Of a stretch of 64,000 nucleotides of DNA, positions 2,486 through 33,909 are shown piece after piece. The notes below the pieces were generated by a model. That model made no database searches. It had not been told where the DNA came from and was given only the letters and a program-made list of their open reading frames with translations. This stretch comes from Tribonema minus. Taxonomy: Eukaryota; Sar; Xanthophyceae; Tribonematales; Tribonemataceae. The position numbers and the translations under genes were made by a program. Every line of letters begins with the position of its first letter. Positions within the stretch are counted from its first letter, which is position 1. The stretch covers positions 1,302,001 through 1,366,000 of the forward strand of contig JAFCMP010000002.1 in the NCBI GenBank assembly GCA_017506865.1, in the 5' to 3' direction.

Positions 2486-5400
2486 ATGGCCGGCATTGTC
2501 AGGCTCTGGCCCCGTGCCTTTGCCTGCGCTTGGCTGTGCACAGCGGCAACGTCTGCCTGGCGTCCCGCTGCACTGAGCAGCACTCTCAAGAGCCAATCAA
2601 GGTCGACGAGGCGGCCTGTGGCGATGTCTTCCACAGCCGGAGACGAGGACGCCGTTGTCATCTGTGGAGGCGGCATCATTGCAGCTTCAATTGCCTACCA
2701 CTTGACGCAGAAGGGCGTCAAGCCGATCGTCTTGGAGCGCAGCGAGGTCGCCGCAGCAGCAAGCGGCAAGGTGAGGAACATGTCACGCGGTCCTACAGTG
2801 TATCTACGTCGTGAAGCAGCAAGCTCTTGCTGTAAATCAGCAGATGCTCCATTCTGTATATTAGTTCCAGATTTATGCGCACGTCAGGCTTGGGTGCTTG
2901 TGTTCAGGAGGACAGCCTCGAACATGCTGTAGTTCAAACCATCATGAACAGTGAAGTGCTGCATAAAAGCGGCTATGGCGTACATCAGTCGTCATAAAAC
3001 TGTGCATCAGGGAAAACTTGACTTTCAAATCACACCTCTCCCATTACATCCAGACCGAGTCCACAGAGTCGCCGCAGCGAACTGCTGCATGCTTCAACTT
3101 CACTACCTCCGTTCTGTCTCATACTCGATGCTGATCGAAGGCCCTACTGCTCTGGCAACCGCGTTTGCAACTGCTGCAGTCGGGGGGCTTTCTGGCGCGT
3201 GACTGGGGGTCTGGCCCGGCGGTGCAGCTGCACACAGCGAGCTTCGCGCTGCACGAAAAGCTTGCGAAGGAGCTCACCGTGGAGAGCTTCAGGAAGCTGC
3301 CGACGCTGAGCGTCAAGGTGCGGCCCTTTGAATCCTTGTCTGCATTGCGAAGGGACTGCCCGGCTGCCGCGCCTGAGAACAGTGCACCGAATATGTGAAC
3401 GCTTTAGGGCAATGTGCAAAGGCAGCGACTGCCCCTGCTTCACACGCGAACGCTGCAGTGTTGATGTCGACGCGATTGGCATGACTGCGGTGCACGTGGA
3501 GTGTTGGCGGCACGGCTAGAGTGGCAGGAAGGCACGTGTGCCTGCCACGCGCGAATGCGATTAGAAGGCGAATTGGCAACGTGGCGGGGTCAGCGTGCCA
3601 GCAGCTGTGCACTGCCGCACATGGAGCATCAGCTGGGCGCTGGGAGTGACAGCTTAAGTAGCTGTGCAAGAGACCGTAAGGGTCTGGCCGACGACACGCG
3701 CATCGGTCTGCAGAAGCCACCTTGGGTTGAGCGGCGCGGTGGGGGCGTGTATGTTCAACTCTAACTCCAACCCTAACCTGACCCAGGTAGGTCACGCAAA
3801 CGTACCGGGTTGGGAAATCCTATTACAGCCATCACAGCCAGATGAAATACCTGATGCTGAGCATCAGCGTTGTTGCACGCCCCGCAGCAGCACGCCGCTC
3901 GCATCACAAGCCCAAACACCGACTGCTGCTGCTCTGGCCATAGCTGTGTCAGCGCGCAACCCAGTCGCCGAGCGCTGCTGCTGCTACTGCTGCTGCTGCT
4001 GCGGCGGCGGCGGCTGCGGCTGCGGCTGCCGCTGCTGCTGCTGCTGCACGTCAATGTACTTGTGTATACTTGACGTACTCATCGTTGTGTGCACATTGCC
4101 CGCTGCTGCTGCTGCTGCTGCTGCCGCTGCTGCTGCTGCTGCTGCTGCTGCCGCTGCTGCTGCTGCTGCGCGTGCAGGTTGGCGGCCGCAAGGGCAAGAA
4201 CGCGGCGTCGTGGCTCGATGGCAAGGCGTCATCGAGCCTCATGGACGATGGCACGGCTCAGGTGACGCCGCTGGAGCTCACGCACAAGCTCATCGATGCC
4301 GCAAAAGGTACGCATTACATCGCTTGATGCTCATGTATGAAACTTCAAAATTTCAAGTTGATTTCGGTTCAGGTGACGCCGCTGGATCAACGCACAAGCT
4401 CATCGATGCTGCAACACGCAGGCAACATATGTTCTGCTCACGTACAGCAGCCGGCATACACGCAGTGTCTGTCAAGGTGCACCGCATATACGCAACTTCA
4501 ACACCTGGAACTCACAGCCCGCATTGCTGCCCCACCGCAGCCGCGGGCGCCGAGGTGCGCATAGGCACAGTGGCGAGCGTTGACACGGAGGAGAGCAGCG
4601 GCGGCAGCAGCAGCAGTGCTCGGCGTGTGACGGGGGTCACGCTCGCGAGCGGGGAGACAATACCGTGCGCCAAGGCGATCGTGGCCATGGGCCCGTGGAG
4701 CGTGCTGGCGGAGGGATGGTTTGGCATACCCGTGCCGATGGAGGGCGTCAAGAGGTGTGTACCCATACCTATATATACCCCATGGCGCAACGTACCACGG
4801 CAGCCAACCGCGCTCGCTGGTCCTAGGGCGTGATGTGCGTTTTTTTGTCTAGCCCAGGGTTGCCCAACCCGACCCTATGTGATATTCTAGCATTGAATCT
4901 GGATACACCAAGGAGGGCTGGTTCGGCATTCCCGTGCCGATGGATGGCGTCAAGAGGTACAAATGTACACCTGCATACCCCATGACGCTGGTGGATGGCA
5001 GACTGCCACCATCACACACATATGAGCTCCTGCGCGCTTTGTAGGTCTTGTACTATGAATCTGCTGTATTATTGCTGTGTGTGGATGCGTGGATACATCT
5101 GGCATCCTTGTGCCGATGGAGGGCGTCAAGCGGTACCTATTCCATACCTATACATACCCCATGGCGCTCTGTACCTACCCCTAAGGCAGACACACTTGCC
5201 ATGATGCTCGCTGCTGCTGGGGCATGATGTGCGTTGCAGTGCGACAGTTGGTCTGTCTAGCACCAATAGCACCAAGAAAACTGGTTTTATAGCATGGAAT
5301 CTGAACACACAAAGGAGGGCTAGATCGGCGTACCTGATTGGATCGAGGGTGTCAAGAGGTAAAGATACCTACACATACCCCCTGGCCCTCACCCTAAGGC

Positions 5401-8400
5401 ACCTACACCTGCACACACACCCAAGCCCGCAGATGGCAGGCCGCAATCATTACACGCATAAGCAGTTGCACGCTCTATAGGACAATCAACTTCACGTGTC
5501 ACGCAGCACGTCGCTGATCTACGAGAACATCTAATCTGCGAGAACGCCGACGTCGTGCGCGTGCAACAATGCTCAATCATCTCACTTCAAGTCAAGATTA
5601 CTACTTCAGCTTCATGTGCCACCGCACAGCATGTCGCTGATCCACGAGGACGTGGACGCTATGCGTTCATGCAACAACACAATGCTAAGTCGTCACACTT
5701 CAACTCAATTTACCACTTCAACTTCACGTGCCATGCAGCACGTCGCTGATCTAGAAGGTCGTGGATGCTGTACGTATGCAACAACGCTCAGTCATCTCAC
5801 TTCTACTCCGTTTCACCACTTCAACTTCACGTGTCGCGCAGCACTTCGCTGATATATGAAGATGTGGATGCTGTGCGAAAGGAGCCATTCGCGCTCTTCT
5901 GCTCCGAGGACGCCAACGGCTGCCACCTGGAGGTGAGGGCGGAGCGCCGCTGCTACTTGAAACACGAGTCACAGTCAAAGTCAGTTTTTGGCATCATTGC
6001 CTGCAAAATCATGCCGCAGGATGTTGATGACCACACTTGTGTGTCGACATGTGATGCTGCACTAGCGAGTGCGCACATGCTCATGTGTCTGTTGCCGTGT
6101 GCGCTTTGCTCTTGGGACTGGAGCACGTGCTGCATGTTGTACATGAGGTGCACACTGCGCAGGTCAGTTGGACGGCACGCCACCATGTGCAAAGTGCCAC
6201 TGCACCCTTCATCCATACAAGTGCTGGCAGTCAGCAGGTTCATCTGATCAGCCAGCAAAGCTCAGTCAGGCCCCACAACAAGTGCTCGGTTAGGGTAAGG
6301 GTTACGGCCAGGGTTAAGAGTTAGGGTCAGGTTACTCATCCAGAGCGTCAGTTCTTAATGGCACCGCTTATCCGGGGTGCGCTCAGTAGCCGTGCTCAGT
6401 GGCGGTGGCCAGTGAAACGGCTCAAACTCTGTCCCAAGACAGAGTGCCACGTGACAGCACTCCTCTCGAGTGTCAGGGCTCAGAGCCACAACCAGAGGCG
6501 ATGCTCATAAGCCGCAACCGTTCTCAGTGTCGCGCGCGGCAGTGCCCACCTAGGGTTAGGGTTAGGGTTATGTTTAGGTTAGGTTAGGGTGGGCTAGGGT
6601 TTGGGTAGGGCTCAGTGACAGTGCACCGTCGCAGCGCTGGTGCAATGATAGAGGATTCAGTGGCAGCGCTGATCCAGTGTGCATCGCTCTACGCGCTGCT
6701 GCAGGTCTACCCGCGCCCCAACGGCGAGGTCTACATCTGCGGGTGAGTCACCCTGTTGAACTAAGACATTGCAACCTGTTGAAGCAACCCATCGCTACCC
6801 CCATCACTAGGCCATGGTGCAACCTGTTGAATTTTTTAATCCACTGTCCTTGAGAGATTCCGCCAGCCTGATAGTGATCATGACGGCGGCTTGCGCCTGC
6901 ACGGTATGGTAGTGCGTCATGCCGCGCAGACTTGCTTGAAGTTGTAGTTCACGCAGCTTGACCCTCATGTGCGCAGCTGCACGCGGGCAGCACATGACCC
7001 CTGAAGCCCTTGCCACAGCAAAGTCATCGAGACGCATGTCCAGTGCAAAGCTATACTTCGAATCTGGGCTTTTTCGCGCCCTGAGCGAGAATTAATGAAA
7101 AGTACATCATTGTGCGCCACACACAAGATCCTTGTGAGCCACACTCATGCGAGGCTGCTAACTGATGCTCGCTGCCATGCGAGGGGCAAGCGCGCTGCTG
7201 CTCTTGCGGTTGGTCGCTGCTTAGGTGTAGGGTTAGGGGTAGGGTTAGGGTTAGGGTTAGGTTAGGATTAGGCGCTGCAAATTAGCTGGCGCCGCTCGGC
7301 GCTCGCCGTTCCTCTGACATTCAGTAATGTTTAGGGTTAGGGTTAGGGTCTGACAAGCACTCAATACCGTCATCGCTGGAACCTGGGCATCCACCAGCAA
7401 GCTGCTGCTAAAAGACACTGACCGGTGTCTCGCGCTGCGGCTGATAGTTGCCGCTCTTCTTGGCGGCAGCGACTACGTGGACGCCGCGCGCCTCGCGCCT
7501 TGCCACCTCGAGATACACTTCGAGATGAAGTTAACATCGCTTCGAAACAAAGACCTCAGACAGTATGTCACACACAATCATGAACTAAAAATTGACTGGC
7601 TGCGCTTGCTGATTGCTCATTCTCGGGGACGCAGCCTTGGCGGCAGTGACTACGTGGATGCTGCGCACCTTGCATCTTGCCACTTCAAGATGAAGTTGAC
7701 AGCACTTCAAAGCGCGCAGAACCGTACATCGTACATGGCGTCACATGTTATTATACACCAGGAATCGACTGGTCACGTTTGCTGATCGCTGCTTCTCTGG
7801 GACGCAGTATCGGCGGCAATGACTATGTGGACGCACTTCAAGACGAGGTTGACATCTCACTGAACGAAAGAACTCACACAATACGTCACACACGATCATA
7901 ATCAGGGTACTGACTGGCTGCGCTTGCTGATCGCTGCTTCTCTGGGCCGCAGTCTCTATGTGGACGCACTTCAAGACGAGGTTGACATCTCACTGAACGA
8001 AAGAACTCACACAATACGTCACACACGATCATAATCAGGGTACTGACTGGCTGCGCTTGCTGATCGCTGCTTCTCTGGGCCGCAGTCTCGGCGGCAGCGA
8101 CTATGTGGATGCTGCGCGCCTGCGACCGGGCGGCGACTGCGAAGCCCCTGAGCTCATCAAGGTATGCACTTGTTTGTGTGCATATTTCATAGAGATAGTA
8201 TATACTTCTACGCGTTTGCCATGAAGTGCACTTCATGTGAAGTTGTGTGTAATGCAATCTGGTCATGTTTTGCGCAACCTTTAGATATGTAAGAGCGAGT
8301 ATGCCACATGTGCACATGCATGTTTTGCAACATGACTACTACAGCAACGCTTTTGGCAGGATCAGCGCTGTGAGAGCGCATCTCTAACCCCAACCTTACT

Positions 8401-10752
8401 CCTAGCCCCAATCCTACCTCTTCCATGGCCATGTTTTCTTCGACTCACAGTGTTTTTCATGTCACACTCAATGTGCGCAACTTTTACGAAAAACAAGGTT
8501 CTGGTGATGACGCCTGGCTGATTCCACAAGTATAAACTGTAGCTCTCAACTCCCTGATGAGCACTGCTTCAACGCCTTCAAACTGACATGGAACGTGGAG
8601 CACGCGATCCGCCGCCGTGTTCATAATTGCCAACTGCATGGCCCCGAAGGCACTCGCTCTGTGCCCCCCTGTTCCCCTGGCCGCATCCACGCATGCTTTG
8701 ACCGCTGCGACGCGTGTGAGCTCTGCACGATGCACAACACTCCAGAGCGCTGTTGCGGCACCACCGAGCGCTGCCGTGCACCATCGCTGGAGGCTGTTGC
8801 AGCACCGCTGAGCACCGCTTTGCCGCCTTTTGGCTCCCTGAGGGGTCAAATGCGGGAGCATGTAATGTGTCGCCACTGTTGCTACCGCCATTTGCCTCAT
8901 ATGCCCCCCCCCCCCCCGCGCCCTGCCCCGCCCCGCCCCTGAGCTTCCCCCACTGGACGCCCGCCGCGTCGCCGCCACCCAGCGCTTCGCATCTATGACC
9001 AGCGGCTCTGTGGTGCTGATTGCTGCTGCAGCGCTGCTTGAAACAGCCCCCCACCCCCCTGCAGGCCGACCCCCGCTGCGTTGCCGCCGCCGCCGCCGAG
9101 CGTTTCGCCTCCATGATGAGCACCAGTTCTATGGCGATTGCTGCTGCAGCGCTGCTCAGCGTGCGTGCTGATGCATCATCATCTCATACAGCCCCCCTTC
9201 CCCCCCCCCCGCCCCCCGCCCGTGCCGCCGCGTTGCCGCCGCCACCAACAGCTTTGCGTCCACAAGCAGCAATTCTATGGCGTTGATCGCTGCTGCAGCG
9301 CTGCTCAGCGTAAACACTGACGCATCATCATTTCAAACATATGCATCATCTCATACTGCCCCCCTCCCCCCCCCCCCCCCCAGGCCGACCCCCGCCGCGT
9401 CGCCGCCGCCACCAAGAGTTTCTCCTCCATGACCAGCATCGGCGCGACGCCGCCGGATGTGTCGCAGGCATGCATGCGACCATGTCCGCCGGACGCGCTG
9501 CCTATAATGGGCGCGGTGCCGGGGGTTGAGGGCGCGTACATTTGCGCGGGGCACAACTGCTGGGGCATATTGTGGGCGCCTGTGAGCGGCGTCGCGATGG
9601 CGGAGCTGGTGGTTGACGGCGCCGCCGCCGTGGTGGACCTCGCGCCGTTCTCGCCCGCACGGTATGTATGTATGCACGAAATTCTTGTTAATTGTGGCTT
9701 TACCAAATGAAATCGAATCAAAAGGTCGTAGAGCTCTAGGCGACAAGGCATGGTTAGCCGCAAGTGCCTTCCACCAATAATTGTGGTCGCCGCTGCTGCA
9801 GCAATTGGCGACGAGTCAAACAGTACCACCACATCATGGTGGATGGTGCGGCGGGCGTTGTGGACCTTAGGGTTAGGGTTAGGGTTAGCCATTCTTGCTC
9901 GCAGGGTGCGCACGTGTGCACGATTGGTCACAGGTCAATCGCATCGTACATGGCTCGCCCGCCAGCATCTCCTGCTGAGTTGACGCGACAACGAAAGTGA
10001 GCATTGTTTAGCTACTGCACAGTGTAAAGTTGATACTCAAAGTACCTATGTAATTTTTACCTCGATAAAGAGCTGCCGTACGTATGCACGCATCACCGCT
10101 TGTGTGTACACTGCTGCGCGTGCCTTACACGCTCCTCTTGCACGATATGTACGCTTTCATAGAGCTACCGTACGTAGACATGAGGTACAGTACGCACGCA
10201 CTACTGCCAGCCAGCTACCAAGGTGTCCCGACAGCAAAAACGGAAATTTCAGCTAGTGTAAAAATCATACTCCAAAACACCGATGTAACTTTTACCTTGA
10301 CAGAGCTGCCATACATACGCACGCATTACCGTTTGTGGTACGCTGCACGTACTTTACGCGCTCCTGTTGCACGTTTTGTACGCTTCCATAGAGCTACCAT
10401 ATGTAGACACAAGGTAGAGTACGCATGCACGACACGCAAATACTTGTCCACACACATGGCCAATCTCACGCCACTTTCACCCACACGGCGATCTTGCTGT
10501 TGACAGAGCTTCAAAACATGTGCGCGCCATACAGAACATGGTGCAATCATGCGCAAACGGTCTGCAATTTCCACATGGAGTCGAAACCTTCACCGAGCAC
10601 ATCGGCATGAGCACCACTCAGAAGCCGTCAGCACCACTGTAAGCCTCACAACGCGGTGCAATCCCCATTCGACCCCCCGCAGGTTCATGACACGGGCATC
10701 CGGGGGCAGGGGCAGGAAGCGGGGGACGGCGGAGGTCGGCGAGCAGTGGTGA
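2486..10752 (+). CDS. FAD-dependent oxidoreductase (DAO family), 9 exons, 439 aa
   Basis: Flavin-dependent amine or amino-acid oxidase-type enzyme; the exact substrate is unknown. Exons: 2486-2770, 3180-3317, 4178-4307, 4541-4754, 5842-5932, 6705-6742, 8086-8161, 9384-9661, 10683-10752. They sum to 1320 nt and keep one frame with GT-AG junctions throughout. Exon 1 carries the Rossmann motif CGGGIIAASIAYHL (about residues 58-71), followed by ERSEVAAAASGK and, after splicing, SGGFLARDW. Later family hallmarks are VYPRPNGEVYICG (split at the 38-nt exon 6), the GHNCWGILWAP segment in exon 8 and a FSPARFM end. From memory it resembles plant FAD-dependent oxidoreductases of the At5g48440 type. The first ATG (2486) gives a leader MAGIVRLWPRAFACAW that could be a signal or plastid-targeting peptide; the ATG at 2624 would give a form without it. 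Introns carry arrays of exon-junction copies, listed separately. Confidence 0.9.
3971..4177 (+). repeat. (GCT)n tract abutting the exon 3 acceptor
   Basis: Intron 2 of the FAD oxidoreductase ends in two blocks of nearly pure GCT/CTG trinucleotides (about 3971-4050 and 4102-4168), separated by a short unique piece. The second block lies immediately upstream of the acceptor at 4176-4177, where a pyrimidine tract is expected. It translates as poly-Ala, poly-Leu or poly-Cys shadow ORFs, which are not genes. Confidence 0.8.
4260..4414 (+). repeat. Copy of exon 3 3' end inside intron 3
   Basis: The last 48 nt of exon 3 (4260-4307, CAGGTGACGCCGCTGG...) recur at 4370-4414, 63 bp into the intron, with a few changes that destroy the frame. 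Confidence 0.85.
4708..5880 (+). repeat. Intron 4 splice-junction arrays (donor and acceptor copies)
   Basis: The exon 4 end plus donor (real: 4708-4760) is repeated at about 4909-4960, 5095-5145 and 5312-5361; each copy keeps the motif GGCGTCAAG followed by R-GGTA or GGTG. The sequence just downstream of the donor (CATACCCCATGGCGC) is also copied. Toward the 3' end, the acceptor and exon 5 start are copied at about 5497-5535, 5612-5662 and 5728-5775 before the real acceptor at 5840-5841. Each copy keeps CGCAGCA or CAGCA followed by CGCTGAT. The copies contain indels and stops. Confidence 0.88.
6290..6612 (+). repeat. Telomere-like TTAGGG tracts in intron 5
   Basis: Degenerate TTAGGG repeats lie at 6290-6335 and 6551-6612 within the intron that ends at 6704. 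Variants such as GGTTACGG and TTTAGG indicate ageing. Confidence 0.8.
7061..7105 (+). repeat. Dispersed hairpin-like motif, copy 1
   Basis: Motif beginning TCTGGGCTTTTTCGCGCCC, then TGAGCGAGAATTAATGAAAA, in intron 6. GGGC...GCCC can pair. Similar sequence recurs near 15743, 17840 and 36408, in introns of POLH and GT92. Confidence 0.6.
7223..7350 (+). repeat. Telomere-like TTAGGG tracts in intron 6
   Basis: Two short TTAGGG blocks (7223-7270 and 7329-7350) interrupted by unique DNA, within intron 6 of the FAD oxidoreductase. Confidence 0.8.
7452..8120 (+). repeat. Intron 6 acceptor-side tandem array (4 copies plus real exon 7)
   Basis: Copies of the acceptor and the start of exon 7 (GGCGGCAGCGACTAYGTGGA) occur at about 7455, 7632, 7808 and 7951 before the real exon at 8086. 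The last two units are essentially identical: 7823-7954 is repeated as 7955-8086, a period of 132 bp, so this duplication is recent. Each unit carries GCTGATCGCTGCTTCTCTGG and then CGCAG. Confidence 0.9.
8950..9420 (+). repeat. Intron 7 acceptor-side array (3 copies plus real exon 8)
   Basis: The exon 8 start (real: 9384, encoding ADPRRVAAATKSFSSM) is copied at about 8956, 9064 and 9210, each preceded by a C-rich run. The copies are followed by a shared ATTGCTGCTGCAGCGCTGCT block. The 9064 copy keeps a near-intact CAG-GCCGACCCCCGC acceptor. Confidence 0.85.
9711..9825 (+). repeat. Dispersed intron repeat (about 115 bp), copy 1
   Basis: Intron 8 of the FAD oxidoreductase holds a block beginning AAATCGAATCAAAAGGTCGT and containing GCAAGTGCCTTCCACCAATA. 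Related blocks lie in POLH intron 7 (24861-24971) and GT92 intron 4 (36004-36120). It does not match any exon. Confidence 0.75.
9828..9925 (+). repeat. Exon 8 end copy interrupted by TTAGGG repeats
   Basis: A decayed copy of the exon 8 end (ATGGTGCGGCGGGCGTTGTG) is interrupted by about four TTAGGG units (9868-9889), after which the exon homology resumes (CCATTCTTGCTCGCAGGGT, compared with CCGTTCTCGCCCGCACGGT). Confidence 0.75.
10020..10440 (+). repeat. Tandem duplication of about 233 bp in intron 8
   Basis: Two diverged units, starting near 10020 and 10253, share GAGCTGCC-TAC-TA-GCACGCAT and TTTCATAGAGCTACCGTACG-like blocks. Confidence 0.75.
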
Positions 10753-11340
10753 TCAGCGGCGCGCGCTGAGACATGCTGCAGCAGCGCTCAGCACACCCTG
10801 TTGCTCGCGGCGGAAGCGCGGCAGCAGCCCGCGTTGCAGTCGCAGCAGCGCTGCACTGTATTCACAGCAGCGATGCACTGCCTGGAGCACACGGTAGCAC
10901 GTGAGCCATGCCCGCTGAGCACCGCCACAAGTCGCTGAGCAGGCTGGCAGTCGGGCACAAAATTTGGCATGATGTTTGCTGAGCTCTGCCACAAGTCGTC
11001 AACAGCTGCTGGCAATTGGGCGCAATTGGGGTCTGCAGAAGCCGGGGCTGCCAGCCCCAGCCGACTCCACTCCACGAGTGCGGTATAGAACAGGGGGGCG
11101 GGGGAGGGGGGGGGGGCAATTTTGATTACGCTGCCTTCTGCGCTTGACGACGCTGCACAGAGTGCAGCTGTCGCAGATGCAGCGCGAGCTATGTATTCTC
11201 TCAAGTGGCCCACGACTCCCAAGTGTTTCCATGTTAAAAGTGCATGCTGATGCACGGGGGCTAGCCACCGGTGCGGAGCACATGCGGCGAAGGGCTGCTC
11301 TTGCAAGCGCCTTCACTGCCTGCCTTTGTGTGCAGAGGTC
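10753..11340 (-). CDS. Possible minus-strand gene, product unknown
   Basis: Protein-like minus-strand segments end with a stop at 10753-10755, directly abutting the plus-strand stop of the FAD oxidoreductase. A putative last exon starts after GCTCCAG near 10889 and reads AVHRCCEYSAALLRLQRGLL and onward to a LSARR end. Farther upstream on this strand, helix-like text such as VKALARAALRRMCSAP (about 11290-11320) precedes a GT. I could not join the pieces into one model, and no domain is recognised. It may be non-coding. Confidence 0.25.
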
Positions 11341-11349
11341 ACAACATGC

Positions 11350-12590
11350 ACAATAATAGGATTGTATGATGCCGTATGCGTGTGGCTGCTAGCTTGTTGG
11401 CAACTTCATAGAAGGCTTGTGGACTTTTCGAGCGTTGTCGTTATAATGCACATGCCGACGCTGTCAGTTACAGAGGTTAGATGTCCAGCTTGCTATCAGA
11501 ATCAACGTGTATGTTGACCATCTGAAAGTGTCTCAATGATATGACCATCTTCTAATCGACGTCGCTAAATGGTATTTCCCCTGCCACTACATCTTCCTCT
11601 GCCTGGCCACCCCCTTTCTGCCATTTTTGTCATCGCACGCAGAGTACACCATGCAGAGCGCTGCTGATACAGCAAAGAACATCATGCATCAGGGCCATCA
11701 AGATGGACGAACAAGCACGATATGTATTGAGCAAGTCGTAACGTGTTTCTTTCTTGTCGAAGTCAATCAGAAACAGCGCATATTATTTTAATAGACATAT
11801 ATGCTGGAAGTGAGTCCGGCTGCTCCCTCAAGTTGAAGTCAAGCATGACCCAGACATGTGTCGACGGCGGTGGGCTCTTGAGCCTGGTTGAAGAAGACTA
11901 TTAGGACGGCGCTTTCCAGCAGATCCGATGGGGGTACAAAGCGCTCACAACAGTGCTCATCGCGTGCTTGAACCGCAATTGCGGGACACGGTGGGATAAC
12001 TGCCACAACCCTCAACGAGCACATTCAATCAATGCCCCGGCCTTTGGACATGTATGCAACATGCAATTGGACAGACACAACAGCCCACAAAGCAAAAAGT
12101 GTTAGGCCCTCGAGAAGGTAGTCACATGGACCTTCTTGCTCTCACTACCCCCCCCCTCCCCCCCCCTCAGTCGAATGCGTGCTCCTGTGACCGGCTATGT
12201 GTGCTGGCGGTGCATGTGCCCAATCTGCCTCTGTACGAGCTGCACTGAGATAGTTGCAGCTTGGATCTCTCAGATTTTTGAACAAGCTGCCTACCTGCCC
12301 CTACGCAGCTCTGACGCGATACTGCGCCGTGTGCATCGGTGACCCTGCGGGCTTATTAAAGTTGTCCAGGTTCACGACCGTGTCGCCACAGTCGGCGAAG
12401 CGGTTCGGCAGCTGCAGGTGCATCATTGCAGGGGACTAGGGGGTCGCGTCACATGGCACTGCAGAAGGTGACGTCACAGCCTTGCCGTTTTTGCGCGTCG
12501 TGTACACCAAAACACGCCACACAAGAGATATGCTCAAAACTGCTTCAGCGACTTGCTGCTCTGGTGCACGTACGCTGGCGCTGATGTCGG
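11350..12590. other. Intergenic, no gene seen
   Basis: Moderate GC, only short ORFs, with a C run at 12149-12167. I see no coding region or repeat family here. Confidence 0.5.
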
Positions 12591-12596
12591 GGCTAC

Positions 12597-13325
12597 GCTG
12601 GCCACTCGGACATCATTGTGATTCTAAAAGTCGTTACCAGTGACGACAAGGGGGGGCCAAGCTGTGCCGTGCAAATTCGCGCAGCTGATAACAGGCGCTT
12701 CGCCGTCAGCACTTCTACTGCTTTCGAGAGGGAGTCCATGCGACGCTGGTGGCGGCGTGAGTGGCCATAGGTGTCGCCAGCAACAGCAGGGAGCCCAACC
12801 TGTGCACGGCTGTACGCAAGCAGCTCCTTGAGGTGGGACTGCACTCATGCGAGTTGACCGTACAGTCGCCGCCGAAAAACGCGGGCTGCGTTGGCGCTGG
12901 AGCTACAGTGTTCCAGGCCTTCACCATGGTCTACAACACATATCCGCAAGGATATGCGTTCGTGGTGGAACGGTACGCTCGTATCCTCAACGAGGTCAAT
13001 GAGTAGGGGCGTGAGCTGACAATCGAGCACGCGAACGTGACTCTGATACTCTGCGGCTCGATGGCCATTTGTCCTTCCAGGCGCCTGCCACCATTGTGAT
13101 TGACTATCTATCGCACAGTGGCGCCGGGAAGGACACGTGGAGCTGCAAGCTGCGAGCTGCAGAGAATAAAAGGACACGAGTGTACCGTTCAAGCACGGAA
13201 CACACATCCTTGCGGGTTGTGTTCCCACCTCAAGAAGCTGCTCGCGTACAGCCGTGCACAGCTTCGGCTCCCTGCCGTCGCTGGCAACAACTCTGTCCAT
13301 GATCAAGTCTGAGTGGCCAGGGAAG
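12597..13325. repeat. Inverted and direct repeat of a protein-like segment
   Basis: The plus-strand segment 12763-12840 and the reverse complement of about 13225-13302 align with only scattered differences (shared core CTGTGCACGGCTGTACGC). A second related plus-strand copy begins with CTGGCCACTC at about 12598. Read on opposite strands, the arms give SHLKKLLAYSRAQLRLPAV-like and SHLKELLAYSRAQVGLPAV-like peptides. A tail reading SEWPGKSKQIASLADSS continues on the plus strand to a stop at 13449-13451. It could be an inverted duplication of the last exon of an unknown gene. Confidence 0.6.
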
Positions 13326-13607: not shown

Positions 13608-16600
13608 ATGGTGGTCATTCCAGTGGTGCTGCACCTGGATTTAGATGGTAGGTGTAATATAATATCACACAGCTTCTTTTCTTCTTGACGGTTCGGCAGC
13701 GGCACACGATCTGAATTGCTGGTAGGAAAACATCACCGGTCGCTGGGACGGCTGCTGACGAACAATGCCTGGATACGATCTGAGAAAGTACATGATGCGT
13801 GCGTGTCTCTGCAATGTGCTGCTAGGCAAAAGGTCGCTATCCTAACACACCACGGACGTCTGTGTGTGAGCAGCTGACGGCACCACATTGTCGCTCGTGT
13901 TGATCTCGTTTCCACTTCCCCTGGTCCAATCATCACTGAACTCTGCAGTGAACCAACGCTAGGAGAATCAACAGAGTATGTATATGTCAATTGGCAGTGA
14001 AGCTTGCAGCACTTCATCAGGTCTGTGCGAGAGTGCTCCTGCAGCCGACTGACTGCACCTTTGAAAGAACAAGCCACAGCGTGCACGGCATCCAACACGA
14101 GGTTGTTGCAGTCATCATTATTCGGATTTGTTAGTGAGTGGTCAATCAAATGTTCTAAACCTCAATTATTAAACAGTCGTGGCCCCTGTCTGATGGTGTC
14201 CTGGCCTCAGTCCATGTGACGTAGTGCCATTGTAGCCCAATCATCATGGGCTGCCAATGCCGCAGGTACCGTCCCGGGCAAATGTCTAGGCCGTTAACAG
14301 TAAGTTTAGGTTGCGCATATGCACGATACCGCTTGTCTATTCTCTCCGAACTATACAGGCGGTGCAGACTCCGCAAGTGGCGGCCGCATGCATGCCTACC
14401 CCCCACTCCAATTCTAACCCTTAGGACTTTAAACTGAGGGTTAGGGCTAGGGTTAGGGATAGGGACCCTCACATATGCAGCCCAAAAAAGTCTGCCGTGG
14501 CATTGCTCCGCACTCCCCGCATGATTCGTTCAGCTTGAGAGGCATCGGCTGCCCACGCCGCGTGCGCGGACGTTGTGCACGCTGCAGCGGCCACTCAACT
14601 CCAACCCGTTCACTGACTCTCACCCCAATCCTAGCACCGGCCCTGATGGGAACCCCTCACATCTCACACCCCAACAATGACCCCATTGGCAACCTTCATA
14701 TCTGACGCCAACAGCATTGCGTCTGCTGCCGATCGCCGCCCTGTGGCCTTTTTCATCCAGGTCGAGAGGCACCGCCTGCCGACGCTGCGCGCGCCCACGC
14801 CGTGCGCGCTGCAGCAGCACCCTAGCACTGGCCCCAACAACACCCCTCACCTCTCCCATTGCAAAACATCTTGTCTTGCCCTGCAGCGTTTTTCATCCAG
14901 GTCGAGAGGCACCGCCTGCCGACGCTGCGCGCGCCCACGCCGTGCGCGCTGCAGCAGCACCAGGACATCATCGCGGTGAGCTACGAGGCGCGCGCGCTGG
15001 GCGTTGCCAAGCACATGCGCCCAGCCGAAGTGCGACGGCGCTTCCCCGACGTCCGTCTCGTGCATGTGGCGACGGTCGGCGACTCCGGCAAGGTACGCTG
15101 CATCGTGGGTATTAGATGCCACCGATAATCTCATATCTTCAAGCATACTAGTATTAGCTTAGCATATGTTTTACTCATTGGTACCTACGTTATCCCATGT
15201 GCACCTCGTGCACGTTGACGGTCGGCGACTCCGGCAAGGTGCGCGGCGCCGCCAGCTTGTGATTATAAATACACGAACTTGAAGTACTTCAAGTAGATGA
15301 TATCAGAAGTAGGAGTAGGTGAGCAACGAGGCGCGCGCGCTGGGCGTTGCCAAGCACATGCGCCCCGCCGAGGTGCGGCGCCGCTTCCCCGACGTGCGGC
15401 TCGTGCACGTCGCTACGGTCGGCGACTCTGGCAAGGTGCGCTGCGAACAGGTGTGAAGCCAGCACCGGCAATCATATACCTTGAACCATGAGTAGTTCTA
15501 GGTCTGCATGTCCTCAGACGTGCGTCTCGTGCACATTGACAGTCGGCGAATCTGGCAAGGTGCGCCGCGTGCTGGATATGAGATGCCTCCGATGATCACG
15601 TACTTCGAAGCTTGCCTGCTAGTTAGTTACATATGCACATTTTCCCTGATAGGCGCCTTGTGCGCGCCGCGGCGGTAGGCGACTCCGGCAAGGTGCGCTA
15701 CGCTGCTGATTTCTGTACATCGCAGTAGCAGAACGTATACATGCCCGCCCTGAGCGAGATTCAATAAAGAGCAGTATGAAGTGATATGTACCCCGACATG
15801 CATCTCGTGCACGTCAACTGCCGGCAACTCTGGCACGGTGCGCTGCGTACGGTTACCAGGTGCCCCCGATCACCACGTACTTTGAAGCATGAACATTAGT
15901 TGTGCATCCTGTGCACACCGCGATGGCTGGCGACAGGTTACAAGATACCATCACATACTATCAAGTATGCATGTAGTTGTAGGTTTTAGAATCCCTACAT
16001 GTGCGGCTTGTACACGTGGCAACGGTAAGCAAGCGTGGCAAGGCGCACAGCTGCATATCCGGGCTACACCTGAGCTGCCATTGCAGGGCCCACTTGCAGT
16101 AGGCAAGTCACCTGCATGCAGGTGATCTATGCAGGGATTTAGCATGGTTTTTAATCTGCGCAAGTAGGCCACTGATGAGTGCAATGATGCTGATATACAG
16201 GAGAGCCATGTACGTGTCACGCGAATACAAGTATACACACCAATTCGCATTTCATGAATGCATGCTGGAATGTATTTTCCTGGCAGTGCGGTTCACACTT
16301 CACCAAATCGCGTACATCAGCATGCAGTCAGCTATGAGCAGCGTCACCAAATTGTTGGAAGCGACATTACAGGAGCACGGCTGAGCAGCAGCCCATTGTA
16401 ATCTAGTGCTTGCAAGCGAGACTACCACAACTGCAAATGGCACTTGAAGTTTGAAGTGGCGTCATCCAAAGCGCTGCAGGTGGCGCTCCATAGATTTTGC
16501 CAAGCACCTTGGAAAACTTCCAGACCTACTCTATTCTACCGCGGACTTCAACGGCCGCTATAAGTACCATCAACTGAGGGCGTCGCGGAACCTGCATTCT

Positions 16601-19600
16601 ATTTGTCACTTCTCTGCTTCTCGCCGTACCTTTCAAGAGGCCCATGCCACCGCAAATCTGCGTGACCTTCAAGTTGCTGAAGGGCAGTCGGTGCACTTTT
16701 GCCAATCTTCCGGAATTCAGTTACAAGGCAACACACTTCAGCACAGGTGTCAAAACTTCAAGCTTGCAAGCGCGTCACACTCTGCGCACGGATGTGCTAT
16801 ATTGCTGTCGTGCGGCTGGCAGCTGACGTATCGTGCATACCATCATCTGCGTCTTCTTTCACTACGTCATGTACTCAACAGACTGCTGGACCTTCCGGTG
16901 CAAACACTGTTTCGGCAGATGCCTGAAATCTCAGGCACCTTCCCTTCGGCACGCCACACTGTCGCTTGAACGCGCCGCCGGCATCCCGTGTGCCACTCCT
17001 CTGCTCCTCGCCTTGCCTTCCAAGAGGTCCATGTCACCGCAAATCAGCGCAAACTTCAAGTTCATCTCGAACGTGCCGCCCGCCAGGTGACGTACCGCGC
17101 GTACCGCCAAGCCTCCAAGAACATCTTCACGCTGGTCGCGAGCCACTGCGCGACGCTTGAGAAGGCGAGGTCAGTAAAATGCCACTATGTTGAAGTTGAA
17201 GTTGAAGCAGCACTCCAAGACCATCTTCACGCTGGTCGCGAGCCACTGCGCGACGCTCGAGAAGGCCAGGTCAGCAAAACGCCTTTGAAGTTGAAGTTGA
17301 AGCAGCACTCCAGAAACATCTTCACGCTGGTCGCAAGCCACTGCGCGGCGCTCGAGAAGGCCAGGTCAGCGGGGTGCCGTGATGTTGAATACAAAGTTGA
17401 AGCAGCAGTCGCCCTGAGGCAGCCGGCAAACAGTACGCTGTTCCTGCCTGAATGGGCCGCCGTGGGTCAACAGCCTGCTGCCCCATAGCATGCCATCCTC
17501 GTTGAGTCTTTGTGGTTGAAGGTGAAGTAGCACTTGTGCGGTTGGCGCTGCACTCTGTTATTTCTGCTTCAATGCGGCAGCATGTAGGTAAGCCGTCATC
17601 GTCGAGGCTCTGCGGTGTTCTCAATCCTTGAGTGCAGGTATCACACCCGCCTCCTCCTCAACACTTCAGATACCTTCAAGCTTGCACGTGTGACTCGCAT
17701 CCCCACCACAACCCCCTGCATCCGATTTCACTGCGCGCTTCTGCACTTCAACCTTGAAATACACTCTCATTCAATGAGACACTTCTAGACTGTCACATGA
17801 CACTTACATTCTGTCCCATCAGCTCTGTTTGTGAATCATGTGGGCCTTTCTGCGCCCTGAGAGACAATCAATGAAAACTAATTTTCTCATTTGCCCCCCT
17901 CCCCCCCCCCCTCCCCCCCCCTACAGCATCGACGAAGCCTTCCTGGGCCCCTCCCTGGATGACCTCGCGCCGCATCTGCCGCCGGCGACGCGCGCTGCCG
18001 CTGCTGCCGCCGCGTGCGCCGCCGCAGACGCTCCGCCTCACCACGAGGTCTGTCTCATCAATACGCTGTACTGAAGCTGAATTTTTATATCAATTCTCGC
18101 TCAGGATCTGTACTACTGATCACTAGTCTTTGAGGCTGCACTGATTATTTAGACTTTTCGAGAAGAACAGCTGGGAGGCATTTGTAAGACCCAGACGCTC
18201 CGCCTCCCCATGAGGCCTGTCTCATCAATACGCCGAACCGATTACTTGGAATCTTCGAGAAAGCATAGCTGGGGGGAATTTGAGTTTCTCGCGTGCGCGC
18301 GCGTAGCCTCATACGATGCGTAACGTTTCCCTCATTGGGCGATTTGGGAGGCCAAGCTGCAGGGGCCGGCTACTGATCAGCCGACATGAAAAATGCAGCA
18401 GCTGGGGCGTGCTGCCTTTGCGTTTGCAGTGTGATAGGGTTAGCTAACCCTAACGCTTACCCCCACCTAAACCCTACCCCTACTGACTTTAACGGCCGGT
18501 ACACTCTACGGGGACCATGATGGTGTTGCAGAGGTGTGCATCAACATGCACTTTGGGGTTACGTCCATTCTCTTGCTGAACTCGATAGCTTGCGCGAGTT
18601 GATGAGTTGGCGCAGCTGAAAGATCGCGCGCACAGCTGCAGACACACGCGTCGCCGCAGACGCAGTGGTGAATGCTCTGCCGTAGCATCAGGAGATCTAT
18701 TGCAATGCTCAGCAATTCCTGATTAGACCGCCGTGACTTTCAGCTTACAGGGGGCCCACCGGGCCCTCAGGTTAGGGTTAGGTCTAGGGTTAACCCTAAC
18801 TTTTCAACCCCACTGACGCAAGCTCAAGGACACGCAAGAGTGATATCCATGGCTGTCTTGCTACAAAACAACGTTCCCTACTGCGCTCAGCCACACTACT
18901 TTGATCAGAAAAATGCCAGCCTGAGCAGTGTCTGCATACTGCTTCAAAGCATATGCAAAAGCAGCAGCTGGGGCGTCTGCTTGCTGCAGCGTCGGCTGTC
19001 GCCGCTGCAAATGCACTTTGCCCCGTGTGAAAGAGTCAAGTCGATCAGGCTGGCCTCGTGTCATTACATGCAGCGACGCTTACGCTCTGGAGTGCACTCA
19101 TGGTAACGACAGTAAGTGCAACTGGTCATCGCATACTGCAGAGCTTTTTCTTTGTTATGCCATCGTTCAACATTTCAAGATTTACCCGTCTGCACCAAGT
19201 AACACTTGCGGGTGACCCGCACTCTGCAGGTCGATACCCCTGACCCCCTGAAACGTCCTCTTTAGAGTGCACTCATGGTAACGACAGTTAGTGCAGCTTG
19301 TCACCACAGACCGCAGAGCTTCTTCTTTGTTGTGCCGTCGTTCAAAACTTCAAGATTTTCCAGTCTGCACCAAGTAACACTTGCGGGTGACTCCCACTCT
19401 GCAGGCCGATACCCCGTCCCCCTGAAGTGTACTCTGTGGAGGGCAATTGTGGTAATGCTAGTTGCTGCAGCTTGTCATCACATACAGCAAGCTTACTCCC
19501 AGTGTTTGGAGTGCCGTTGCTCACAACATCATGTAACAATCGGCATCACAAGTAATTCGTGCGAGTGTCCCCCGCTCGGCAGGTCGACACCCCGTCCCCC

Positions 19601-22600
19601 TGGAGCGAGGGGCTGCGGAACCAACTGCTGGAGGCCGGCGGAGCGCTGGCACGCGAGATTCAGGCAGCGCTCAGCGAGCAGCTCCAGTACGAGTGCAGCA
19701 TCGGCGTCGCCGAGAATAGTGAGCTGAAAGCATCCTTCTTACTGGATAGTTTGCCACTCACAGCAGTGCATAGCAGTATCTATATGATATACTATCAGGT
19801 AAATAGCGCTGCTGTGCTGAACTGCCGTCTGTGTTGATATCAACCGCTATTTACCTTGAAGTCACCGTGCAAAGATTTAACCCTGGGAAGTTAGTTCAGC
19901 ACTTGCAACAGTAGGCTTTGAACGCTGCTATGTACATTCACGTTCCGGCATGCACGCTCCGAGATACGGGCAGCGCTAAATGGGCAGGTCCAGTACGACT
20001 GGCAGCGCTCAGCAAACAGCTGCAGTACGAGTGCAGCATGGGCGTCGCTGAGAACAGTGAGCTCGAACCCTTATCTGGAAGGATAGGCCGTTGCGGAGAA
20101 CAGTGAGCTCGAACCACGACTCCAAAGCATAAGCAGCTGTGCAACAAAAGAGGCATAGGCATTGCTGAGAGCAGTGTGTTCAACACATCACTTATAGCTT
20201 ACACCATCATATACGATTGCTGTGCAGCGTCACCTTGCAACTTCAACTGTTACCTTCGAGTTTTTCTCTTGGGGGGGGGGGCGTGTCAATGGGAGGCTGG
20301 TGGAGCGCCGCTGTGTGGTGTACAGGCAGGGCAGAAGCAGCCACCTTCTTGACAAGTGCAGCATCAGCTTTGCTGAGATCATCAGTGACCACACGAGTGA
20401 CTCGAGTCGCTGGTGCTGGTTGGGCACACGGTGAGCTGCACAAGCGAGTACAGCAACTCCTAGTGCAAGTAGGCAATTTTGCGCGCTCCGCAATGCGCCC
20501 TGGCGGGACCATTCCCCGCGCTGTCCGCGCCAACCTCAAGCCTACCTCGATCATCCCTGACATCCTAAGCATTACCCCCTGACACCACACACACGCACAC
20601 TCGCCACCCACCCTGCGCTCTTCCCCCCCCAGAGCTCCTGGCGCGCTGTGGGGCGACGCACGCCAAGCCGCGTGGCGTCCACGTCCTGCACTTCAAGACT
20701 CCATGCGCAACCAACACTAACCCTAACCCAACCCTACAACAAATTCGACCCCCTGACACTCCCTGACACTTTGACACCCTCCCCCGCCCCCGCCCCCCTT
20801 TGCCCCCTAATCCCCCCCCCCCCCCGAGCTCCTGGCGCGCCTCGCGGTGCGCTGCGCCAAGCCCAGCGGCGTCCACGTCCTGCGCTTTGCTTTTGACATG
20901 TCGCCGACAAAGATGGGTTTCCCCCATGAACCGTCAAATTTCAAACCTCGCCCCCTAGAAACCTGCCCCCCTCCCCCCCCCCCCCCCCCGCGCAGAGCTC
21001 CTGGCGCGCCTCACGGTGCGCAGCGCCAAACCGCGCGGCGTCCACGTCCTGCGCTGTGCTATCAACATGTTGTTGACAAAGATTAATGTGGTATTATTCG
21101 CAAGAACTGAAGTCTTTTGAACACCCTGACGCACTCTCGCTCCCCCTCCCCCCCCCCCCCCTCCACACATCCAGAGCTCCTGGCGTGCCTCTCGGTGCGC
21201 GGCGCAAAGCCCCGCAGCGTCCATGTCCTGCGCCCCGTCGTCGTCCTATGCGCCACCAGCACTAACCATAGCACAATCCTACACCGTAACACAATCCTAC
21301 ACCCGGTCCAACCCCAGACACCCACTGACACCCACCCCCCCCCCCTCACTGCCATCCCCCCCCCCCATGCGGAGCTGCTGGCGCGCCTCGCGGTGCGCCG
21401 CGCCAAGCCCCGCGGCGTCCACGTCCTGCATTTCAGGATTCTATGCGCCACCAACACCAACCCCAATCCTCCCCCCCCCCCCCTTCCACGCAGAGCTCCT
21501 GGCGCGGCTCGCGGTGCGCCGCGCAAAGCCCCGCGGCGTCCGCGTCCTGCGCCCCGCCGCTCAATGTGCCACCAACATCAATTCTAACTTAGGTCTAACC
21601 CTACCCTAGAACCTAATCAAACCCCTGACACACACTGCCCCCCCACCCCCCCCCCCCCCCTGCGTCGCCATGCAGAGCTGCTGGCGCGTCTCGCGGTGCG
21701 CAGCGCCAAGCCCCGCGGCGTCCACGTCCTGCGCCCCGCCGCCGTCTCCGCACTCCTCGCCGCCACCCCCTTCACGCGCCTGCAGGGCTACGGCGCCGGC
21801 AGCGCCGCCGCGCGCGCAGTTGCAGCGCTAGGCGCCATACACCTCGCCGATCTAGCGCGCCTCGGCGCTGCGGCGCTCGCGCGCGCTGAGGGCGTCGGCG
21901 CTGCCGCGGCGGCGGCGCTGGCGGCGGCGGGCGCGGGAGTCGATGGTTCGGCGGTGGCGCCGCGGCCGCCGCCGGCGTCCATCCAGTCGCAGGTACGGCA
22001 GCCGGGCGTATGATGCGCATTGTGAGTCGGAAGCACTGAATGAGCACGGCAGTTCTATAGAAAGTGGGATGTTAGGCGTGGGGTGTGGGTTGAGCGGCGC
22101 CTATCCGGGTGCGCGGTCGCTTCTTGCTGGGTTTGAGGCCGCAGCCCTCAGCTGGCCATGAGTTGGACACCTCGAGCGGCCGCCGCCAGCGTCCGTCCAG
22201 TCGCAGGTGCGCGGCGCGCTCAGTTGTATGCAAACTCTTTGTGGTGTGGTGGTGGCGGTGTGGGCTTCGGGTCAGGAACCTGACCTGACCCTACATTGGG
22301 CACTTGGAGCTCCCGTGAGCGAGTGCTGGTCACCGCCCATGGCGCCGCGGCCGCCGCCGGCGTCCATCCAGTCGCAGGTAGGTGTGCGGCGCGCGCTTAG
22401 TTGTATGCGAGTGAGTGGGGTTTGGGCTTTGGGCCAGGACACCGTGTGCGCGGTCGCCTCTGTGTGACTTTGCTGGCTTTGTATTTGTGCTGGAGCCCTC
22501 TGTCCATGAGGTGGACACCTCGAGCGGCCGCCGCCGGCGTCCGTCCACGCACATGTACGGCGGCTGGCGCACGGTATGCGCATTGTAAGTCGGAGCCAGC

Positions 22601-25600
22601 CTTGATGAGGCGGGCACTTTCATAGGAAGTCTGATGTTGAACTAAGAAGTTCGGCGCGGGGTGTTGGTTGTGGCGGCGCCTATGCGGGTGCGCGGGTCGC
22701 CTCTGTGCGACCTTGTAGGTTTTAGAGTGCGGGCTGGAGCTCTCATCGAGCCCTGAGTTGGACACCTCGAGCTCTCAGCCTGCACGCAGGTGCCGCAGCC
22801 TGTCGCTGGCATCTGCCGTGTGTGAGCTGTTGTGCACAAGCAACTAGGCATCGTGCTTTGAGCACACCCACTGCGAAGCCACAGCAGTGTGCGATCGTGA
22901 TGTGCGATCGTGATAGGGCACCCATGACCCCGGTGCATTGGGTCTGAGTGGCGAACAACGGATATCTGTACAGTCGTGCCTATGGATAGTCAGCAGTGTG
23001 AGCAGCCCGGCACCATACTCGTTGGGCCAGCCTGAGTGATGTTGCAACGCTCGGCGCGGCAGCGCTCACGCGCGCGCGGCGCAGCGGCAGCAGCCGCTGA
23101 CGTGTCTTCGCGATCCAAATTCATTTCAGTGTTCAACACTTTCAACGGATGCTGGAAACATGCTTTCAAAGGCAGTAACGCTGATGGAGCTTCGCAGTGT
23201 ACCGCTGTGCGTACTTGAGTGTCTAGGGACGTGCATGGCCTTCTGCGACGCTGCACAGGCGCCAGGCATCCGCTGTCCTACAGGAAAACAACGGTGTGCA
23301 TGCGCGCCGTTGTGCAGCGCTGCACGTCCGCAGCGGAATGCCCTTGCAGCCCATTCCTGGCGTCAAACGAGACGCATGCCCCCTTGCCCTGTGGACTTTA
23401 CACTAACCTGTACCCTAACTTCAACGTCCTCCAAAACAAAAGTGACCTTCGACCATGCATCCGCCCCCCCCCGCGTACCTGGACAGAACAATGGCACACT
23501 CAACACCAAAGTGCCCTGCAGATCAGGTTTTGCACTCAAATATGCGCCCACTTCACGATCCCGTATGCTAGCCCGTGACCCTAACCCTAACCCTAGCCTG
23601 CACTGCCCCGCCCGCAGACGAGCCTGACGCCAAAGCCAGTGGCAGCGCTCATGAACCCAGTTCTTTGAACCCAATTCTTGCGCACCAAATGAGATCCACG
23701 CCCTGTTGCGCTGTTGACTGTACACCATCCTGCACCCTGAGCCTCGCCTGCTCTGCCCCCCGTGCAGACGAGCCTGACGCAGAGGCCGGAGGCAGCGCTC
23801 TTTAACCCAGTTCTTGCAAATCAAGTGAGGCTTATGCCCGTCATCGACTGTACACCAACCAGGACCGTAACCCTAGCCTGCTCTGCCCCCTGTGCAGACG
23901 AGCCTGACGCACAAGCCGGTGGCGGCAGCGTTCTCAAACCCAGTTCTTGAACCCAGTTCTTGCGCACCAAATGAGACTTATGCCCCTTGCACTGTCGACT
24001 GTACACCAACCCATACCCTTCCCCTATAACCTGCTCTGCCCCCCGCACAGACGAGCCTGACGCCAAAGCCGGTGGCAGCGCCCTCGAACCCAGATCTTGC
24101 ACACTAAATGAGACCCACGCCCCCTTGCACCAACCTGTACGCTCACCCTAGCCTGCTCTGCCTACTGTGCAGACAAGCCTCACTCCGAAGCCGGTTGCAG
24201 CGCTCTTGAACCCAGTTATTGAACCCAGTTGTTGCACACCAAATGAGACCCACGCCCCCTTGCGCTGTCTACTGTACACCAACGCATACCCTTCACCTCC
24301 GCCCCACTTGCAGACGAGCCTGACACCAAAGCCTGTGGCAGCGCTCTGCCTGGGCCGCCCGCAGGACATGCTGCAGCCCATCGGCGCGCACGAGACGGAG
24401 CGCCTGCGCTACCACATGGCGGTGCTCGCCGCCGATGTGCTGGAGCGTGCGGAGGTGCGTCACTGCTTGAACTTTGATCAGCGTGAAGTTGTATCAATAA
24501 GACAGAGAAGGAGCGCCTGCGCTACCACATGGCGGTGCTGGAGCGCGCGAAGGTGCGTCGCCACTTGAAGTTTCATCAGCACATTGTCACTTGAAGTTTG
24601 AGCCCATTGGCGCGCACAAGACGGAGCGCATGCACTTCCACATGGCGGTGCTCGCTGCTTGAAGTTTGATCAATGAACACAGACGGAGCGCCTGCCATAT
24701 CACATGGCGGTGCGCGCCGCCAAACGTGCTGGAGCGTGTAGAGGTACGTCAATGCTCAAAGCTTTAAACAATACATCAGTATGTTGGTTCCCCAACACGC
24801 GGGGATGCAGACCACGAAACCGTCCAAACACTCTCTCTTGTCTCACAGGTTCACGGAAAGAAATGAATAAGATCGTAGAGCTGTGGGTGACCAGGTGTGG
24901 TTAGCTGCGAGCGCCTTCCACCAATAACCGTGGGCGCCGCTGCAGCAGCAGCAATGGCCACGAGTTCATACCCGTTTCTCAACAAATACTTTACCGCTTG
25001 GACCTTCAAACGATACACAGCCAGCATTTTGGCTCCCCAACAGGCGGGGATGCAGATCACCCGACGAAACCGTTCACACCCCCTCCCCGCTTATCTCGCA
25101 CTTCATTCATACTGGTTTCTCAACAAACACATTATACCCCCGCGCACAGGAGGACGCGGCTGAGAACGCGCGCGTCCCAACGGCCATCATCACCTCCTAC
25201 CATCTCGCCGGCGCCGGCCAGAAGAGCCGCCGCATGCCGCTGCCGCGCGCCGCCGCTGCTGCCGCGCCCGGCCGCAGCTCTCCGCCGCTGCCGCTGCCGC
25301 CCGAAGACCAGCTCGTGGAGCTCGCGCTGACGCCGCTGCGCGAACTCGCCGTGGTAGACGCCGCCGCCGCTGCCGCGCACGACAGCGGCAGCAGCGGCGG
25401 CGGCGGCGGCAGCAGCGGCACTCCCGTCGTGCGGCTTGGGCTGTCGCTGACGGGGTTCGTGCCGTGGGGGCGGCGGCGGCAGCGCAGCGTGCGCGACGCG
25501 CTGCTGCAGCAAGGCGCCACCGCCGCTGTAAGTGTCAGCGGCGGCAGCGGCGGCGGCGGCGACAGCGGCGGCAACGGCAGCGGCATCAGCAGAAGCGCTG

Positions 25601-26101: not shown

Positions 26102-26139
<38 letters not shown>

Positions 26140-33856: not shown

Positions 33857-33909
<53 letters not shown>

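Follow-up and report, generated by a model that had tools for sequence, protein, structure and literature searches.

The 64,000-nucleotide stretch of DNA analyzed here (the window) corresponds to C2:1302001-1366000 of the 158.18-Mb, 554-contig genome of Tribonema minus, a xanthophyte within the stramenopiles. Two of its plus-strand genes, encoding a flavin adenine dinucleotide (FAD)-dependent oxidoreductase and a Y-family, POLH-like DNA polymerase, have introns that repeat the ends of their own flanking exons. The FAD exons were joined by hand at GT-AG borders, the final base (of the stop) being taken directly from the sequence; the resulting protein of 439 amino acids (aa) matches Pfam DAO at E = 2.2e-39 and, from residue 47 to its end, is identical to a deposited T. 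minus protein of 393 aa (P0001). The POLH model is 802 aa long, terminates in a stop and contains an IMS domain (E = 4.8e-31). The junctions of a deposited POLH-like protein (P0121, 460 aa) agree with this model except at introns 3, 6 and 7, where, by our reading, the deposited protein enters the copies described below. A search with POLH exon 2 in plasmids gave no match.

Copies were detected by aligning each exon end (at most its last or first 100 bases) to its own intron and to the 22 other introns of the window, the threshold being set from the scores in these non-cognate introns. Above it stand 46 copies of own flanking exon ends in 13 of the 23 introns, three of them weak (21461, 23050 and 20292), in agreement with the original prediction of about 40. 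Scores against the own exon were 30-181, while the best non-cognate scores had medians of 14-22, and non-cognate introns stayed at background except for the neighboring introns of the same exon. In a self-BLAST of the whole window, 24 local repeat arrays emerged. Of these, 17 span junctions of annotated plus-strand genes; four lie within introns and touch no exon (FAD intron 8, VWA intron 1, POLH introns 2 and 7); another consists of a coding CAG-type repeat; and the last two fall in putative minus-strand genes, where the array at 60735-60962 resembles a simple acceptor copy and that at 38807-39143 may be another. Both approaches confirm that introns repeat their own exon ends, often with the splice sites, and the copies range, as had been claimed, from near identical to barely visible. 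They cover one exon end, not complete exons. The GT is kept in 17 of 20 donor copies and the AG in 18 of 25 acceptor copies, which bears out the description of the arrays as decoy splice sites. Ten of the 23 introns lack a copy above threshold; none was found in FAD introns 1, 2, 5 and 8, nor in six of the eight introns of three other genes in the window. No array was found in 19.3 kb judged non-genic (spans set partly by eye), where the intron-only rate of four in 26.5 kb predicts only about three. The individual features are given in Table 1.

Table 1. Genes, junction copies and telomere-like tracts in the window. TRF, Tandem Repeats Finder.
Feature	Position	Strand	Details
FAD-dependent oxidoreductase gene (DAO, PF01266)	2486..10752	+	nine exons
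FAD exons	2486-2770, 3180-3317, 4178-4307, 4541-4754, 5842-5932, 6705-6742, 8086-8161, 9384-9661, 10683-10752		
FAD intron 3, donor-type copy of exon 3 end	4365..4414	+	without GT; 90% identical; scores 76, with non-cognate introns reaching at most 24
FAD intron 4, donor array	4755..5361	+	copies end 4956, 5132, 5358; GT after each
FAD intron 4, acceptor array	5486..5841	+	exon 5 start copies 5507, 5630, 5739, AG before each; only 5739 exceeds threshold; TRF period 103
FAD intron 6, acceptor array	7458..8085	+	copies 7458, 7635, 7808, 7953; exact 133-bp tandem duplication from 7823
FAD intron 7, acceptor array	8953..9383	+	exon 8 start copies 8953, 9065, 9217; one with AG
Y-family DNA polymerase (POLH-like) gene, PF00817	13608..26514	+	eight exons
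POLH exons	13608-13647, 14887-15092, 17087-17169, 17927-18047, 19583-19718, 21676-21992, 24314-24454, 25150-26514		
POLH intron 1, acceptor-side copies	14520..14886	+	14520 and 14747, both without AG
POLH intron 2, donor array	15093..15891	+	copies end 15238, 15435, 15559, 15692, 15837; GTGCGC after all
POLH intron 3, donor array	17170..17410	+	95-100 bp units; copies end 17269, 17364; TRF
POLH intron 4, donor-type copy of exon 4 end	18192..18241	+	GT changed to GC; 88% over 50 nt; under threshold
POLH intron 4, acceptor array	19081..19582	+	175-bp units; copies 19230, 19405 (only 19405 above threshold); TRF
POLH intron 5, donor-type copies of exon 5 end	19952..20063	+	second ends 20056, with GTGAGC
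POLH intron 5, acceptor array	20633..21675	+	six exon 6 start copies: 20633, 20827, 20996, 21175, 21373, 21494
POLH intron 6, donor array	21993..22772	+	copies end 22206, 22377, 22552
POLH intron 6, acceptor array	23578..24313	+	exon 7 start copies 23618, 23768, 23898, 24051, 24173; TRF
POLH intron 7, donor array	24455..24756	+	copies 24505-24539, 24601-24658, 24678-24738
GT92-like gene, donor copy in last intron (outside the range of the original prediction)	35868..36003	+	40 identical nt
VWA-like gene, two donor copies after an exon (outside the range of the original prediction)	57258..57681	+	ends 57438, 57609
Acceptor-type copy upstream of exon at ~60766	60880..60962	-	exon without confirming family match
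TRF head-to-tail arrays	5562-5874, 7779-8109, 17113-17370, 19090-19494, 21356-21581, 23584-24298		
TTAGGG-type tracts	5386, 6290, 6550-6567, 7227-7262, 7331-7348, 9867-9884, 14435-14464, 18772, 20715, 23579-23596, 36728-36751, 44743-44872		

Repeats of this kind might be carried by a mobile, introner-like element, and an interspersed intronic repeat of about 130 bp does occur in three introns of the window, with 2389 first-look candidates genome-wide. However, the junction copies match their own exon, with non-cognate introns at the background just described, and the one unit searched for through the genome (158 Mb), the POLH exon 6 start, had six matches, all at its own locus (the exon itself and five array copies). 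A mobile element is thus a scarcely credible source. Introners (PMC9860276) are also repeated intronic sequences in which splice sites are involved, but they are copied into many genes, whereas the T. minus copies are private to their own junction as far as tested.

The pattern is not confined to the window, and about half of the introns examined carry copies. Profile searches with DAO, MCM and kinesin yielded 65 genome loci, nine of which were dropped before counting, either as copies themselves (L028, L031, L032 and L034) or for internal stops (L007, L009, L042, L054 and L055). Among the 56 exons kept, exon-end copies lie downstream of ten and upstream of none, and exon-start copies upstream of ten and downstream of none (20 on the expected side and 0 reversed); 16 exons have at least one flanking copy. 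Many of the flank alignments, judged by eye, have GT or AG in both sequences, and some have lost it. Copies were also found in 18 of 43 introns elsewhere, from 24 MCM, TCP1 and kinesin genes whose exons were located through profile matches, a set that was not blind, since the MCM and kinesin loci had already been flank-tested and C135 and C5 were chosen after the TCP1 table hinted at copies. A further 16 introns came from four myosin genes picked from a profile table that showed no copies, and seven of these carry them. Pooled with the window, 38 of 82 introns have copies; the check on other introns that accompanied the original prediction thus finds the pattern again. Counting copies as overlapping profile-match pairs was also tried: ten were seen by eye in three of the profile tables, all of the expected polarity and one of them (C146:376030) ambiguous, and none in the myosin table. 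This count is not relied on.

How strict is the polarity? Within the window, the half of the intron next to the donor holds 22 of the 24 donor-type copies, and the half next to the acceptor 21 of the 22 acceptor-type copies; the remaining three sit at 0.48-0.53 of intron length. In the four introns with both types (FAD 4, POLH 5 and 6 and, with its sub-threshold copy from the self-BLAST, POLH 4), the donor array finishes before the acceptor array starts. Among the 43 introns elsewhere, the donor half holds 22 of 31 donor-type copies (the other nine are at 0.53-0.89, in arrays extending past the middle) and the acceptor half all 13 acceptor-type copies, with donor-before-acceptor order in all four introns that have both. 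In the myosin introns, nine of nine donor-type and five of six acceptor-type copies are in the expected half. Over the 82 introns, 45 tests fall on the expected side and three are reversed (TCP1 C5 intron 1, kinesin C168 intron 3 and myosin C522 intron 5). The claim that donor copies never appear near acceptors, or vice versa, is therefore nearly right, the three reversed tests being what separates it from a strict rule. The polarity adds, however, no support of its own for a special, polar process. It arises from any local tandem duplication over a junction, provided that the outermost donor and acceptor stay in use, and they must stay functional because any other choice would alter the mRNA. 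Since this geometry explains the polarity, a polar mechanism is unnecessary.

The sidedness also bears on whether the arrays are the footprint of intron birth. In the tandem genomic duplication (TGD) model of intron gain (Rogers; Hellsten et al.; reviewed in PMC3443670), duplication of an exonic AGGT-containing segment gives rise to a new intron. Local tandem duplication and splice sites take part in both cases, but in that model the new intron comes from an exon, while in T. minus existing introns lengthen. Furthermore, the footprint that we deduce from the model has the start of the downstream exon at the donor side and the end of the upstream exon at the acceptor side, opposite to the polarity in T. 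minus. Only three of the 48 positive tests are of that kind, and the three introns concerned also carry expected-side copies, which makes intron birth a very improbable origin for the arrays.

In all likelihood, the arrays in T. minus introns arose as segments of about 95-300 bp spanning exon-intron borders were locally duplicated in tandem, time and again, and then decayed in a mostly neutral way. By this process, the intron would gain from each junction-crossing unit either the exon end plus its GT or the pyrimidine tract and AG followed by the exon start. As the mRNA would survive only if splicing still used the outermost donor and acceptor, copies of the donor type would build up downstream of the donor and those of the acceptor type upstream of the acceptor, the polarity being the outcome of geometry and purifying selection. 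The copies would then serve as fresh units for later duplication and drift. The duplicated units do span the intron-exon border and copy the splice signal, and the tandem geometry together with the shared intronic parts indicates that their source is local tandem duplication. The youngest clear event is in FAD intron 6, where the near-identical tandem units first described as 132 bp long at 7823-8086 turn out to be an exact duplication of 133 bp, with a 134-nt identical run starting at 7823 and a 1-nt overlap at the joint. It extends only about 4 nt into exon 7 and is mostly intronic. In the other arrays, spacers are recognizable and the units measure about 95-300 bp. Duplication across exon-intron borders, as originally proposed, is thus upheld by the tandem geometry, the shared intronic parts and the exact duplication, and on the strength of copy identity it may well be ongoing. 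The window also has 16 exact tandem doublings of 9-60-bp units, some in simple coding repeats, vs 0-2 in six Markov shuffles, an excess in line with a general proneness to duplicate short sequences in tandem.

Near-identical short tandems are prone to mis-assembly, and an assembly artefact has to be considered on that account. However, divergence from the exon amounts to several percent or more in the majority of copies, and many contigs show the pattern, so that an artefact is hardly believable. Duplication events of this type are known. In the gene for a potato RNA-dependent RNA polymerase (PMC4974935), one tandem duplication across an intron-exon border created a new intron; there, too, the duplication copied the pyrimidine tract, AG and exon start, but T. 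minus has serial copies at both intron ends in many genes, and no new intron is demonstrated. Like intronic minisatellites in general, the arrays consist of decaying head-to-tail units, but the T. minus units are anchored on a functional splice junction. A literature search, mostly of titles and abstract openings and with few subscription journals, found no such arrays and no study of T. minus introns. Within that literature, the density of the arrays, their presence at both intron ends and their spread over many genes appear to be undescribed.

The decoys themselves are probably mostly neutral, judging from how they have decayed. The GT or AG is retained in 35 of 45 (78%), compared with 71% expected from exon identity, and 36 to 38 of the 45 fall within the range of a neutral simulation. 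A functional role for the copies, with selection preserving them as alternative splice sites or as exons, would agree with the frequently intact sites and with the excess of third-position changes: differences between decoy and exon amount to 20.4% at third codon positions vs 6.4% and 3.9% at the others. It would also agree with the deposited POLH protein, which by our reading appears to pass through the donor copies of intron 3 to use the donor at 17364, to take a cassette from the intron 6 array, and to have an exon inside the intron 7 array, where it terminates without the C-terminal region of the gene. However, the retention of GT and AG matches the prediction from drift, the offset between decoy and real site is a multiple of three in only nine of 45 cases and does not preserve the frame, and some copies have gaps and others stops (such as the MCM match C146:376030). 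The deposited model lacks the C-terminal part and may be a prediction unsupported by RNA. We consider selection for such a function unlikely. The third-position excess lies partly in alignment columns in which more than one copy differs (22 at third positions vs 8 elsewhere), as serial copying from a synonymously changing exon would produce, older copies retaining the former state. Purifying selection on the decoys was dropped as an explanation for the same reason, since much of the excess is in these shared columns and may repeat one change in the real exon. Mutually exclusive tandem exons, as generally known, also repeat exon sequence in a neighboring intron, but they do so as whole exons with both sites, whereas in T. 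minus usually a single exon end is copied, at offsets that rarely keep the frame.

Several observations weigh against tandem duplication with neutral decay as a complete account. Between decoys, identity is 77.6% in exon parts and 63.5% in the adjoining intron parts (exon parts higher in 9 of 12 arrays), and between the real junction and its decoys it is 84.8% and 63.4% (14 of 17 arrays). From seven to nine of the 45 decoys fall under the 2.5% point of the simulation, where about one is expected, as if their exon parts were younger than the adjoining intron, and the mean identity of the intron parts is 64.3%, below the simulated 71.4-72.5%. Differences confined to a single copy are still skewed toward the third position (29 vs 16 and 13). 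Copies farther from the exon tend to be less identical to it, but this amounts to no more than a trend (the nearest copy exceeds the farthest in 10 of 12 arrays; permutation P = 0.13). Finally, the case for continuing duplication draws solely on copy identity, within a single genome.

It is possible, although doubtful, that the exon parts are renewed from the functional exon, by gene conversion or short templated copying that rewrites the decoys. Such renewal would add to tandem duplication rather than oppose it, and by it junction arrays would persist while intron-only repeats decay. The excess of decoys beyond the simulation points in this direction, as do two POLH copies. The copy at 14747 has 73 exon nt identical to the exon (14749-14821, first given as 71 nt at 14749-14820, the long identity itself being correct) beside a strongly diverged spacer, and the copy ending at 22377 is a mosaic, its exon part 100% identical to the real exon and its intron part 50%, the level of unrelated sequence. 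Moreover, the five exact repeats of 36-73 nt that were found (offsets 30-799) are all exonic or end within 8 nt of a junction, the sole intronic run being that of 134 nt. On the other hand, the loci are few; the exon part is no better kept in the FAD intron 4 acceptor array, the VWA array and, between decoys, POLH intron 4; and in the GT92-like gene the interspersed repeat starts about 7 nt past the site, where its later insertion can explain the lost intron part.

How far does tandem duplication across junctions account for intron length? Junction arrays make up 46% of intron bases in FAD and POLH, 32% over the annotated introns of the window and 23% elsewhere, and the original description of such duplication as the main way in which introns lengthen is overstated. 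Array-bearing introns are longer (rank test, P = 0.0006 for window and elsewhere pooled and P = 0.013 elsewhere alone), although longer introns also offer more room for arrays; the arrays would seem to cause lengthening. Of the 21 arrays in annotated introns of the window, 17 span a junction, where random placement gives 4.9; elsewhere the figure is 19 of 27 vs 10.4 expected (P = 0.0003, rising to 0.04 on the assumption that anchoring doubles the visibility of a copy and to 0.22 if it triples it). The corresponding exon-flank count, with incomplete annotation and overlapping loci counted repeatedly, is 26 of 90 arrays vs 18.3 expected. Copies anchored on a conserved exon stay visible for longer, and a mutational preference for junctions is therefore not claimed. 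A true preference, strong in the window and marginal elsewhere, is less certain.

Other features of the window deserve mention. Telomere-like, TTAGGG-type tracts, nearly all intronic, are in large excess (28 matches to TTAGGGTTAGGG with at most one mismatch vs 0.06 expected) and are possibly scars of break repair. The interspersed repeat (9706-9835, 24855-24965 and 36002-36130) is 80-84% alike within the window, and nearly all copies scored genome-wide, the query aside, are 90-92% identical. An inverted repeat lies between the FAD and POLH genes (12762-12838 and 13223-13299; 87% identical over 77 bp). The GT92-like gene (32384-37162) has a family match barely over its cut-off, and a homologue search with its protein found none. 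In the VWA-like gene, the VWA match is weak and under the Pfam cut-off and the first exon is uncertain; a long AT-richer stretch at 52000-55500, with short palindromic GTTACTGTAAC-type repeats, lies in what is read as a first intron of this gene. Two related genes in opposite orientation, at 27988-29225 (minus) and 49271-50654 (plus), have DNA pieces about 70-77% alike, the latter being a putative mannosyltransferase (PF11051). At 46083-46110, an exact 13-bp tandem doubling shifts the frame in an otherwise coding-looking stretch and may be a polymorphism, a pseudogene feature or an assembly error.

The lengthening of introns is usually attributed to transposons and drift. In T. minus, each copy bears the label of its exon, and the origin of much intron sequence can be read directly; the labels make the rate of duplication, the decay and possible conversion measurable for each intron. 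The arrays are a practical hazard for gene models, as the deposited POLH model, by our reading, enters copies at three of seven introns. They also provide a test of splice-site choice, as the sites that must be used have many near-perfect decoys, donors and acceptors alike, a few hundred bases away or less. More speculatively, and with less than even odds in our estimation, a functional splice junction might act as a master copy, being duplicated in tandem toward the intron and continually overwriting the exon parts of its decoys, the arrays thereby escaping decay and driving intron growth genome-wide. If so, about half of the introns would hold decoy splice sites for the spliceosome to ignore.

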